From positions 1 to 21,851 of IMG/VR virus record IMGVR_UViG_3300037119_002814: a stretch of 21,851 nucleotides of DNA. One strand, written 5' to 3'. The DNA is from a virus. The notes below the pieces were generated by a model. It did not search any database. It worked only from the letters and a program-made list of their open reading frames with translations, and was not told where the DNA came from. Shown here one piece after another: positions 1,098-21,320 of this stretch. Made by a program: the position numbers and the translations under genes. Each line of letters begins with the position of its first letter. Positions within the stretch are counted from its first letter, which is position 1.

Positions 1098-2331
1098 GGG
1101 GGGAGACGAGGGTGAAATGGCTAGAAAGAGGAAAGATGAGGGTACTCTAAAGGATGGACGTACACCGCCGATCTTCATTCATAGCATCATCGACGACATG
1201 ATCGGCCTTACACCCAACACAATGCGCGTCTATATGCACCTAGCGCGCCGTGCGGATAAGTCGGGCGCGGCCTGGCCCAGCTACCAAAGCATCGGCGATC
1301 ATTGCTTTGGTAGCGTCTATAAGAACGCTGAGAGCCGGCGGCGACATGCAATGGAGTCCATTGATGAGTTGATCAATGCTCAATTGGTTCGCAAAGAAAT
1401 GAGGTTCAATGAGCTTGGATTTCAAAGCAATCATTATGTTTTGCTCGATCCACCAACGACAACCCTAGTGATCCCAGGATCACTACCTAGTGATCCACCA
1501 ATCACTACCCTAGTGATCGAGGACGCCCTACCTAGTGATCCTGGGATCACTACCCTAGTGATCCCAGGATCACTTAAAGATTCTCCAGTTGAAGATCTTC
1601 CAATAGAAGATACTCCATTGGAAGAGGGGATTGTCGGCGCAACGCCGACGCCCCCTGTTGCTGCGGAATGGCTGGCATATTTGGCTGCGCTTTGTTGGGT
1701 CTGTTACGGCCATCAAAAAACAGAGGCTTTAACGGTAGAGCAAATGGGCGCGTTGACGGCAGAGGCAAAGAAGATCCGCGACCTCGGTTACAGCAAAGAG
1801 GATTTGCGCGAATGGTGGAAGCAAGTCTGGCGCAATGATTGGCGCTGGGACAAGGGTCGGCAGCGCCCGCGCCCGGATGAGGTGCGGTCAAGCATCCCCA
1901 TCTTGCGCGCCGCTCACGAAGTGGATGACGCCGCCAACGGCAGCTATTTGCCGGCAAATTATGAGCCGCTCCAAATGGGCTCCCGCCTGCAAGAGATGGC
2001 CGCGGAGCGTGAGCACGCGCAACTGGCGCGGCGGCAACTGGTTGAGCAACTCCATGCGCCGAACGCGCAGCTACTAGCCTTTTGGCAGATGGTGCAGACC
2101 GATGTACGCCTTACGATGACCCCCGACCACTACCGCCTCATCGCTGACGCCTCGGTTTTGTGGATGGATGAGGCTACGGTAGCCGTCGCCATTTGGGATC
2201 GGGAGATCTATCGGGATCTGCTGCACCCAAACGCTACGCTGCCTTTGGCCCGCGCCATGAGTTCGCTGGCTAAGCGCAAACTGAATTTGCAAGTCGAATT
2301 TCTGGATAGCGAGACGGAGGAGGCCCAATGA
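1084..2331 (+). CDS. Phage replication initiator-like winged-helix protein carrying internal iterons
   Basis: A 415-aa protein. Residues about 35-124 form a winged helix-turn-helix of the HTH_36/lambda O N-terminal type (GLTPNTMRVYMHLARRAD, then WPSYQSIGDHCF, then a wing region ending in NHYVLLDPP). Residues about 125-164 are repetitive (ITTLVIPGSLPSDP-like units) because the DNA there is an iteron array. An acidic linker follows (PVEDLPIEDTPLEE), then a roughly 235-residue C-terminal region of unknown fold rich in Trp and Arg, where phage initiators usually contact helicase or its loader. AGGAGG (1072-1077) lies 6 nt before ATG 1084, which also overlaps the end of the GIY-YIG gene. ATG 1117, with GAGG 5 nt upstream, is the alternative start. 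The stop overlaps the next gene as ATGA. The role as origin-binding initiator is inferred from the winged helix and the internal repeats. Confidence 0.75.
   Translation: MATSRGGDEGEMARKRKDEGTLKDGRTPPIFIHSIIDDMIGLTPNTMRVYMHLARRADKSGAAWPSYQSIGDHCFGSVYKNAESRRRHAMESIDELINAQLVRKEMRFNELGFQSNHYVLLDPPTTTLVIPGSLPSDPPITTLVIEDALPSDPGITTLVIPGSLKDSPVEDLPIEDTPLEEGIVGATPTPPVAAEWLAYLAALCWVCYGHQKTEALTVEQMGALTAEAKKIRDLGYSKEDLREWWKQVWRNDWRWDKGRQRPRPDEVRSSIPILRAAHEVDDAANGSYLPANYEPLQMGSRLQEMAAEREHAQLARRQLVEQLHAPNAQLLAFWQMVQTDVRLTMTPDHYRLIADASVLWMDEATVAVAIWDREIYRDLLHPNATLPLARAMSSLAKRKLNLQVEFLDSETEEAQ
1464..1575. repeat. Iteron array: five 22/23-bp palindromic units inside the initiator gene (putative replication origin)
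   Basis: CCTAGTGATC occurs at 1464, 1486, 1509, 1531 and 1554, so the spacing is 22, 23, 22, 23 bp. Each copy is the left half of a unit TAGTGATCC-NN-GGATCACTA. The inverted halves are perfect at 1466-1485 and 1533-1552, one base off at 1556-1575, and decayed in units 2 (1488-1507) and 3 (1511-1530). Because two units make 45 bp, the array keeps the reading frame and is translated as a 15-residue repeat. The spacing is close to two helical turns, as expected for protein bound on one face of DNA. The lambda origin has the same design: imperfect palindromic iterons inside gene O. Confidence 0.8.
1584..1628. repeat. Three 15-bp direct repeats beside the iterons (possible DNA-unwinding region)
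   Basis: Three tandem 15-bp units begin at 1584, 1599 and 1614. They share TCCA, then 2-3 variable bases, then GAAGA. Units 1 and 2 both contain GAAGAT; unit 3 ends GAAGAGGG. They are richer in A and T than the flanking coding sequence and start 8 bp after the last iteron. By analogy with lambda this is where duplex opening would occur. The role is inferred. Confidence 0.5.
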
Positions 2332-5002: not shown

Positions 5003-5038
5003 TATCCAATTGGACGATCCATCTCATCCAATTGGATG
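5003..5038. promoter_or_regulatory. Twin palindromes 22 bp apart, upstream of a promoter
   Basis: CATCCAATTGGATG (5025-5038) is a perfect 14-bp palindrome. TATCCAATTGGACG (5003-5016) is a near copy sharing the ATCCAATTGGA core. Starts are 22 bp apart, about two helical turns, and the nearer one ends 28 bp before the -35 at 5067. This fits a pair of sites for a dimeric regulator binding cooperatively. The ligand is unknown. Confidence 0.6.
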
Positions 5039-5873: not shown

Positions 5874-7295
5874 ATGCAACCTCATCTTACCTTCAACGCG
5901 CCTGTCGCACAAGAAGAACCAAAACTTATTCCCCAACCGCAAGGCATGAAATACCAGGTATGCCGACCGTTAACGCCTATCGAATTCGCCGCGCTCAAGG
6001 CGGATATAGCCGATCATGGTGTCCTGATTCCGATTGACGTAGATGAGAATGGCGCTATTCTTGACGGCCATCATCGCGTACAGGCATGGCAGGAATTGCG
6101 CGCCGAAGGCATCGACATTCCGCAATATGCCCGGCTGATCCGCAAAGGACTGAGTGAGGAACAAAAGCGCAACCACGCCCGCAAGCTCAACTTGTTGCGA
6201 CGGCAGATGACCAAAGATGAGCGCGAGCAACTTATGGTAGATATGCGCCAGGATGGGGAGAGCTACCGCAAGATTGCCGAAGTCGTTGGCGTGAGTGCGC
6301 CTACTGTGATGTCTACTGTTAAGAATTTAACAGTAGAGCAGCCGCGACAAATTGTCGGTAAAGACGGCAAACGGCGAGATGCCAAGAAGTCGCGTAAGCC
6401 AAAGACCAAGACTCTTTTTGACCCCGGCAACAGCGCCGCCATTGACGCCACCGCTATCAAGAAGGACAAGGCAGATCGCCGCGCTGCGAACCTGGCTACC
6501 TATCGTCAGAATGGGCACGCGCCATTTGAGCCAGTTCACGGAGACGTGACTATCCACAACGTAGACGCGCGTTACCTGGCCGACCATTGCAAGAACGTTC
6601 ACCTCGCCATCATGTCGCCGCCCTACAACGTCGGCATTGAATACGACGTTTATCCCGACAACCTCATTGACTATTGGCAGACCTTGATAGAGCCCATTTT
6701 TCGACAGTGCATCGACGTCATGGTCGAAGGCGCTCGTATTTGCGTCGTTGCGCCCTTTGGTGTCGGACGTAAGCCCTGGGTGCCGCTCGCCACAGGCATG
6801 TTGGAGACACTTGACCATGTCGGCTTTGTCGCGCGCGGCCAAATCATTTGGGACAAAGGCACGTCGGGCAATAGTACCGCCTGGGGTAGTTATCGTATGC
6901 CTAGCGCGCCCTCCTTACGTGACACCTGCGAATGTATTGTTGTCGCCCAAAAAGGCAAGGGCGGGTTGGAGATTCCGCGCGAACTCATCCAACACGACGA
7001 CGCGGGATCGTATACCCCTTGGCTCAAAGACGGCGACTACTTTATGGAGTTGGCGCAAGACCATTGGCAGGTAGCGCCCGAAAGCGCCCAACGCGTCGGC
7101 CATCCTGCACCTTTCCCCACTGAGCTTGTGCGCCGCCTCATCCACTTCTATGGCTTTCCTGGTTGCCATGTGCTTGACCCGTTTGGCGGTAGCGGTACGG
7201 TGGGCGTCGTTGCCAAAGAGCTTGGCTGTCAAGCAACCCTCTTTGAGATCAGCCCCGACTATTGCCGCATGGCAGAGGAGCGCATTTATGCGTAA
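5874..7295 (+). CDS. ParB-like domain fused to beta-class DNA methyltransferase (probably N4-cytosine)
   Basis: A 473-aa protein. Residues about 28-105 form a ParB/Srx-type domain (RPLTPIEFAALKADIADHG, then AILDGHHRVQAW). Residues about 122-152 hold a helix-turn-helix (DGESYRKIAEVVGVSAPTV). The methyltransferase domain follows: catalytic motif IV SPPY at 248-251, and the AdoMet-binding motif DPFGGSG at 435-441. Motif IV before motif I marks the beta class, and SPPY favours N4-methylcytosine over N6-methyladenine. Such proteins methylate phage DNA, either as part of a restriction-modification system or as an orphan shield against host restriction. The gene has its own promoter and leader hairpin. 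It overlaps the nuclease-like gene by 8 nt. Target sequence cannot be read from the protein. Confidence 0.9.
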   Translation: MQPHLTFNAPVAQEEPKLIPQPQGMKYQVCRPLTPIEFAALKADIADHGVLIPIDVDENGAILDGHHRVQAWQELRAEGIDIPQYARLIRKGLSEEQKRNHARKLNLLRRQMTKDEREQLMVDMRQDGESYRKIAEVVGVSAPTVMSTVKNLTVEQPRQIVGKDGKRRDAKKSRKPKTKTLFDPGNSAAIDATAIKKDKADRRAANLATYRQNGHAPFEPVHGDVTIHNVDARYLADHCKNVHLAIMSPPYNVGIEYDVYPDNLIDYWQTLIEPIFRQCIDVMVEGARICVVAPFGVGRKPWVPLATGMLETLDHVGFVARGQIIWDKGTSGNSTAWGSYRMPSAPSLRDTCECIVVAQKGKGGLEIPRELIQHDDAGSYTPWLKDGDYFMELAQDHWQVAPESAQRVGHPAPFPTELVRRLIHFYGFPGCHVLDPFGGSGTVGVVAKELGCQATLFEISPDYCRMAEERIYA

Positions 7296-20624: not shown

Positions 20625-21320
20625 TTACGGAAAGTTGATCTTGCGATCCAGCCCATGCGCCGTGATGTAGGCATCGTAAGCATGAGCGGCTTCTACATCC
20701 GTGGCAAAGCTGCCGACATAAGTCTTTGAGCGATTGACCATGATTTCGACAACCCAATGATTGCGCCGCTTGTCTTTGTAGATGCCACGGTACTGTGATT
20801 CCAGACCGCGCTTTGGCTGAAGGGGAACATCTTGTTCATCTGTGAGAATCGACAAGTCATTCAAACAGGCGAATTCGCCGTGAAGTTGGATCGCCGCCTC
20901 ATTGTAGGCATGAGCGGCTTCGCGTTGCGTCAAAAAGTAGCCGAGATGGATGGGTGCGCCATCAACCTGTATCCTTGCGGCCCAACGGCTACTACGATTA
21001 CGCACCACACCCTTGAAGACCGACAAATTATTCTTGCGCGCACGCGTGTTACGGATGCTTTCGCCAGGAGTGGCAATGCGAAGATTGCAGCGCCGGTTGT
21101 CCAGCGTGTCATGGTTGATATGGTCAGCATAGACGCCTTCACCCGCACCGGCAATCAGGCGGTGCATGTAGATGTATTCGCCAATAGTGCGAGTGATATT
21201 AATGCGCCGCATGGCATAGCCACCAGCCGTAGCGCACCACTTCCATTGGTTCAGCCAATCAAAATCAGCATCATCTACCAGGGCAACCATGCCACGCGTA
21301 AGTGGGATTTCTTTAGTCAT
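20625..21320 (-). CDS. HNH homing-type endonuclease with two AP2-like domains
   Basis: A 231-aa protein. The HNH site is DHINHDTLDNRRCNLR (residues 66-81), with the metal-binding His and Asn in place. Two AP2/ERF-like DNA-binding domains follow, at about 102-152 (FKGVVRNRSSRWAARIQVDG) and 176-229 (YRGIYKDKRRNHWVVEI). This architecture is typical of freestanding homing endonucleases in phages. AGGAGG (minus strand, 21334-21329) is 8 nt before ATG 21320. It is opposite in direction to the tail genes on both sides, and its stop lies 1 nt beyond the stop of the tail gene. No broken gene is visible around it, so it occupies an intergenic site. Confidence 0.9.
   Translation of the reverse strand: MTKEIPLTRGMVALVDDADFDWLNQWKWCATAGGYAMRRINITRTIGEYIYMHRLIAGAGEGVYADHINHDTLDNRRCNLRIATPGESIRNTRARKNNLSVFKGVVRNRSSRWAARIQVDGAPIHLGYFLTQREAAHAYNEAAIQLHGEFACLNDLSILTDEQDVPLQPKRGLESQYRGIYKDKRRNHWVVEIMVNRSKTYVGSFATDVEAAHAYDAYITAHGLDRKINFP

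Follow-up and report, generated by a model that had tools for sequence, protein, structure and literature searches.

Does the array of repeats embedded in a predicted initiator gene of an uncultivated phage constitute its replication origin, and to which kind of origin would it belong? The window, that is, the whole stretch of DNA analyzed here, was a virus record of 21,851 bp, classed as linear and probably a fragment. A first-pass annotation had proposed a lambda-like origin written inside the initiator gene. The repeats were examined in the window itself, against the coding constraints of the gene, and in related phages and plasmids.

The initiator gene and its internal repeats

The features of the locus are given below by their coordinates in the window and their strand (a dot where none is assigned).

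1117-2331, +: replication initiator gene, 404 aa, HTH_36 winged-helix type (Pfam HTH_36, PHROG families)
1213-1443, +: winged-helix DNA-binding domain, residues 33-109, recognition helix at about 71-87 (AlphaFold2)
1453-1659, +: disordered linker, residues 113-181, holding the entire proposed origin (pLDDT <50)
1447-1463, +: probable (weak) vestigial sixth iteron unit (identity of 1447-1491 with 1492-1536)
1464-1575,.: iteron array, five CCTAGTGATC copies, proposed initiator-binding sites (repeat, shuffle and null tests)
1466-1485,.: iteron 1, perfect palindrome TAGTGATCCCAGGATCACTA, two central bases free
1488-1507,.: iteron 2, two mismatches
1511-1530,.: iteron 3, left half exact, right half decayed
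1533-1552,.: iteron 4, perfect palindrome TAGTGATCCTGGGATCACTA, two central bases free
1556-1575,.: iteron 5, one mismatch
1576-1626,.: AT-rich tandem repeat AAGATnnTCCAnTnG, three 15-mers, proposed DNA unwinding element (GC null, counterparts)
1663-2331, +: helical C-terminal part, presumed helicase or replisome contact (helices from residue 183)

The predicted protein matched Pfam HTH_36 (PF13730) at 2.5e-6 with 27.6 bits, above the cut-off of 25. This was its sole Pfam match, RepA_N giving none, and the PHROG replication initiation families 270 (4.8e-9), 8540 (7.6e-7), 391 (2.4e-4) and also 4617 were matched as well. AlphaFold2 predicted helices at residues 33-49, 56-64 and 71-87 and strands at 91-97 and 103-109, and this domain, when folded alone, reached a pLDDT of 80. 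Structure comparison retrieved winged helices broadly, including the N-terminal domain of DnaD, with no E-value below 0.001, and viral models carrying the names 'replication protein O' and 'GpO N-terminal' were matched as well. The stretch predicted to be disordered followed the winged helix and lay exactly over the array, and the proposed origin would therefore sit in a disordered linker. The C-terminal part matched no Pfam family; its resemblance to DnaA domain I, noticed by eye, found no Pfam or PDB sequence match and is not claimed.

The five exact copies of CCTAGTGATC started at positions 1464, 1486, 1509, 1531 and 1554, with spacings of 22, 23, 22 and 23 bp, and represented halves of 20-bp palindromic units TAGTGATCCNNGGATCACTA. 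This confirmed with exact positions the five half-palindromic direct copies that the first-pass annotation had described within the coding sequence, and its two perfect units and decayed third were likewise found (1466-1485 and 1533-1552 perfect, 1511-1530 with its right half gone). Outside the array, CCTAGTGATC was absent from the rest of the 21,851-bp window with one mismatch allowed, and none of the dinucleotide shuffles reached five copies. In a 240-bp scan of the whole window, the array was the maximum both for direct 8-mer pairs (D8 of 71, elsewhere at most 5) and for inverted 8-mer pairs (I8 of 24, elsewhere at most 10). The strongest inverted repeat outside the array was an isolated one at 5004-5037 (ATCCAATTGGACGA/TCATCCAATTGGAT). 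A 45-bp duplication reached upstream to 1447, with 1447-1491 and 1492-1536 being 78% identical in register, and therefore weakly suggests a decayed sixth unit upstream of the array.

The GC-skew change that the first-pass annotation had proposed as a check did not appear, given that the skew dropped at the array without changing sign and the cumulative skew was still rising. An Rfam search gave no match. GATC sites were concentrated at 1441-1575, with nine in 135 bp versus 63 in the whole window, because every intact palindrome contains GATC twice; methylation control of the array is conceivable, and GATC was missing from the iterons of most homologues.

Repetition of the DNA and of the encoded peptide

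As the first-pass annotation had noted, the two-unit period of 45 bp appeared in the protein as a repeat of 15 residues (TTLVIPGSLPSDPPI / TTLVIEDALPSDPGI / TTLVIPGSL). The DNA repeats could merely reflect selection for a repeated peptide within a low-complexity linker, a reading in line with this 15-aa repeat and with a linker that is predicted to be disordered and is repetitive in the homologues. We consider it very improbable, since successive copies were found in different reading frames (phases 2, 0, 2, 0, 2, with TLVI and PSD produced from the same DNA) and since synonymous recoding in silico destroyed the repeats. Moreover, homologues that keep the peptide repeat and not the DNA repeat had been named beforehand as evidence against an origin, and the opposite was observed: the linkers of the homologues were equally repeated at the DNA level while their peptides differed.

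The excess of repeats was quantified against the coding constraints of the gene. In codon shuffles of the initiator gene no 10-mer occurred more than twice, and under a synonymous-codon null with the gene's own usage the 71 direct 8-mer pairs observed compared with 3.7 expected and the 24 inverted pairs with 0.46, both at p=0.002, which is the floor of 400 draws. Control stretches from other genes of the window reached p<=0.05 in 3 of 76 cases in the same null. The alternating frames, together with the excess over the synonymous-codon null, therefore indicate that it is the DNA, rather than a peptide repeat, that is under selection.

The tandem repeat that follows the array is a second element, which the first-pass annotation had missed. 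Its 15-mer units lie at 1577-1591, 1592-1606 and 1607-1621 (AAGATTCTCCAGTTG, AAGATCTTCCAATAG and AAGATACTCCATTGG, respectively), and the corresponding 54-nt stretch (ORF 463-516) had a GC content of 41% versus 56% expected from synonymous codons (p=0.0005). Codon choice in this tail was unusual in that proline was always encoded by CCA (7/25 elsewhere in the gene) and glutamate by GAA in three of four cases (5/26 elsewhere). The bias was milder than in lambda (41% versus 26% GC), with 9% of the in-gene windows being as low. A significantly low GC content (p<=0.01) was found in the tails of the window, Thermaerobacter, two Deinococcus plasmids, L058, L059, L048, ZF40 and lambda, and in about half of the relatives it was explained by the amino acids or fell short of significance. 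By its position, 1576-1626 would occupy the place of the AT-rich opening region of lambda.

A layout shared by phages and plasmids

The full-length window protein retrieved no relatives from viral or genome contigs, and these were found with an alignment of the winged helix instead. The domain was detected by tblastn in plasmids of Nostoc, Deinococcus and Thermaerobacter and in lambdoid, Vibrio, Aeromonas, Salmonella, Klebsiella, Stenotrophomonas and Pectobacterium phages, and profile scans yielded further homologues in viral contigs and Nostoc genomes. In-gene direct repeats exceeded the synonymous-codon null in all 29 initiator genes (p 0.002-0.025), i.e. that of the window and 28 others, lambda O included. 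The common layout consisted of a winged helix, an in-gene array with a mean spacing of ~22.4-22.5 bp and then an AT-rich tandem repeat, and it was seen in the Nostoc, Deinococcus and Thermaerobacter plasmids and in enterobacterial, Vibrio, Aeromonas and Stenotrophomonas phages. The search for related winged-helix initiators with in-gene repeats, which the first-pass annotation had called for, thus recovered the layout across several phyla.

In the homologues, between three and eight phased sites occupied the corresponding place, with typical spacings of 23/22/23/22 in Nostoc, 24/21/21/24 in enterobacterial phages and 20/24/23 in lambda. In a curated set, 42 of 61 adjacent spacing pairs summed to 45 bp versus 14.6 with shuffled spacings, a count in which arrays with irregular gaps in the automatic detection (L058, L059, L062, L076, L081 and L084) were left out, the weak upstream match of the window array was dropped, and related sequences were counted separately, so that the associated p-value does not amount to a formal probability. 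The tail began within a few bp of the array and read AAAGATTATCCAATTGAAGATTATCC in Nostoc, AAAGTTACTTCAACTGAAG in Deinococcus and AGAACCAGTCACTCTTTTGAACCAGTCAA in enterobacterial phages, the Vibrio phages differing from the latter by one change. A blind scan of viral contigs with the tail motif found a further initiator, L076, with in-gene 21-bp repeats; the second match, L077, was an unrelated Glu-rich protein. The palindromes were not clean everywhere, L076 presenting plain 21-bp direct repeats and L058 and L059 irregular arrays. Cyanobacterial homologues fetched later (L092, L094, and L091, which is nearly identical to L049) fitted the layout, and several homologues adjoined DnaB or lambda P genes. 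The cyanobacterial CyRep paper (PMC10899382) makes no mention of iterons, repeats or helix-turn-helix proteins.

A cyanobacterial protein of 136 aa (L093) was a stand-alone winged helix without linker and without repeats. In plasmid pNe_5 of Nostoc edaphicum (L080:1471-3039), the initiator gene ended early beside an IS630-type transposase, and the replicon gene therefore seems to be interrupted. The phage L015, whose terminase was 89% identical to that of the window, carried a different, DnaD-like initiator (L015:1554-2489) upstream of the same neighboring ORF; its in-gene repeats measured 24 bp, and a 12-bp tandem ACAGAGACTTCT came after them. This reads as an exchanged replication module relative to the window.

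The sequence of the iterons varied along with the initiator. The winged helices of L058 and L059 were ~62% identical to that of the window, yet their repeats were others, and in Vibrio phage D67 two copies of CCTAGTGATC and one of CCTAGTGAC occupied the same place in the gene. The motif, which the first-pass annotation had not recognized, is therefore not unique to this phage. Phages with the helix EISKRSV shared TAGTGCAGGAGATTCACTA, and those with ECSKSAV had TGCC-type sites. Iteron similarity correlated with winged-helix identity (Mantel p=0.01, with hand-picked iteron consensus strings), as would be expected if the N-terminal domain binds the iterons and recognition is replicon-specific.

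These comparisons also bear on other functions that the array might have. Since palindromes are bound by winged-helix proteins, and since autoregulation is often a second role of iterons, the array could be an operator by which the initiator blocks its own transcription, and not, or not mainly, an origin. This reading is improbable: the sites lie ~350 nt inside the gene, and the scan for promoters and terminators around the initiator gene found no more than in shuffles; the AT-rich tandem repeat downstream would have no role in an operator, and the three to eight phased sites of the homologues exceed what an operator needs. A mobile palindromic repeat of the REP or MITE type, or a functionless local expansion by slippage within the gene, is considered less probable still. 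Tandem palindromes are indeed prone to slippage, and the 45-bp duplication is visible; however, no copies were present elsewhere in the window, the exact palindrome occurred in the viral collection at four loci as single sites without arrays (treated as chance), and the homologues carried unrelated repeat sequences at the same place and with similar spacing. Finally, the window encodes a protein with a ParB-like/HTH N-terminal part fused to an N6/N4 DNA methyltransferase (5874-7295), for whose ParB-like domain the array could be a centromere-like partition site. This was deemed the least probable of the alternatives, as every homologue examined had its array within the initiator gene and the array sequence co-varied with the winged helix of the initiator.

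The proposed origin and its relation to lambda

The lambda origin lies within gene O, where O dimers occupy inverted-repeat iterons and opening takes place in a 40-bp A+T-rich region (PMC5043065, PMC7466680). The window resembles it in that the origin would likewise be inside the initiator gene, with several inverted-repeat iterons that start at nt 348 of the ORF (348-349 in lambda O) and are directly adjoined downstream by an AT-rich region, which are the attributes of a lambda-type origin. On the other hand, the iteron sequence is unlike that of lambda, the window has a strict 22/23 alternation with in-frame 45-bp pairs where lambda has 20/24/23, and its tail is a 15-bp tandem versus an A-rich tract. 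No P gene is recognizable next door, and no helicase, loader or P gene was recognized in the 21.8-kb record, which is probably a fragment, or beside the initiator gene.

The likeness to lambda concerned the layout and not the protein family. The window protein did not match Phage_rep_O (PF04492/TIGR01610), which lambda O itself matched; the window profile compared with lambda O gave a 1% probability and no convincing alignment, and the PDB search returned no lambda O structure. By sequence, the protein is thus outside the lambda O family, with only a fold-level likeness to the viral models named GpO or replication protein O, and it was therefore filed under the HTH_36 initiators with a presumed lambda O/ori-like way of working. 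Initiators of this type from Vibrio phage D67, E. coli phage cdtI and Nostoc plasmids share the N-terminal family, the in-gene repeats and the tail, and differ from the window in their C-terminal domains and iteron sequences. The Rep of staphylococcal pPR9, which supports autonomous replication, has an N-terminal domain of the same family (pfam13730) (PMC5703833). RepA_N plasmids carry Rep boxes centrally in their own rep gene, in a dispensable linker, and those of the pSK41 type are similar in that a winged-helix N-terminal domain binds repeats within the own rep gene (PMC5703833), although this domain belongs to another family than that of the window protein.

Taken together, the initiator profiles, the winged helix followed by a disordered linker, the repetition at the DNA level, the homologues and the AT-rich flank indicate that the array is very probably a phage replication origin inside the initiator gene, of the lambda intragenic type. 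How it operates, from initiator binding through unwinding to origin activity, is inferred here as follows. The N-terminal winged helix would bind each ~20-bp palindrome (1464-1575), probably as a dimer, and adjacent dimers, 22-23 bp (~2.1 turns) apart, would stack into an O-some-like complex that may strain and open the AT-rich 15-bp tandem repeat at 1576-1626, where the replicative helicase could be loaded with the aid of the C-terminal region. Two circumstances would make such DNA tolerable within the gene: the linker it encodes is predicted to be disordered, and a pair of 22/23-bp units spans 45 bp, or 15 codons, so that adding or losing copies two at a time may leave the frame intact.

The lambda-type intragenic origin is a kind already known, and what was not expected is how widely the 45-bp geometry and the tandem tail are shared. 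It is possible, at somewhat less than an even chance, that these loci form a cross-phylum superfamily of one-gene replicon cassettes that has not been described before. These would combine a winged helix, a selected 45-bp (22+23 or 21+24) two-dimer array and a conserved 12-15-bp tail acting as a sequence-specific opening or helicase-loading signal, with iterons that diverge with the recognition helix as a readable specificity (incompatibility) code. An uncultivated phage gains a very probable replication origin, placed to the base, and the lambda layout is not confined to the lambda protein family, since its geometry was also found in Cyanobacteria, Deinococcota, Bacillota and Pseudomonadota, on plasmids and in phages. 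If the 45-bp spacing and the tail are functional constants while the iterons diverge with the recognition helix, many phage and plasmid origins could be predictable from sequence alone, and initiator specificity would be directly testable.

Two further genes of the window were recorded. A MUG113/T5orf172 (GIY-YIG-like) protein is encoded directly upstream of the initiator (486-1097), and an ORF at 20625-21320 on the minus strand, opposite to the structural genes, resembles by eye an HNH/AP2-type homing endonuclease.
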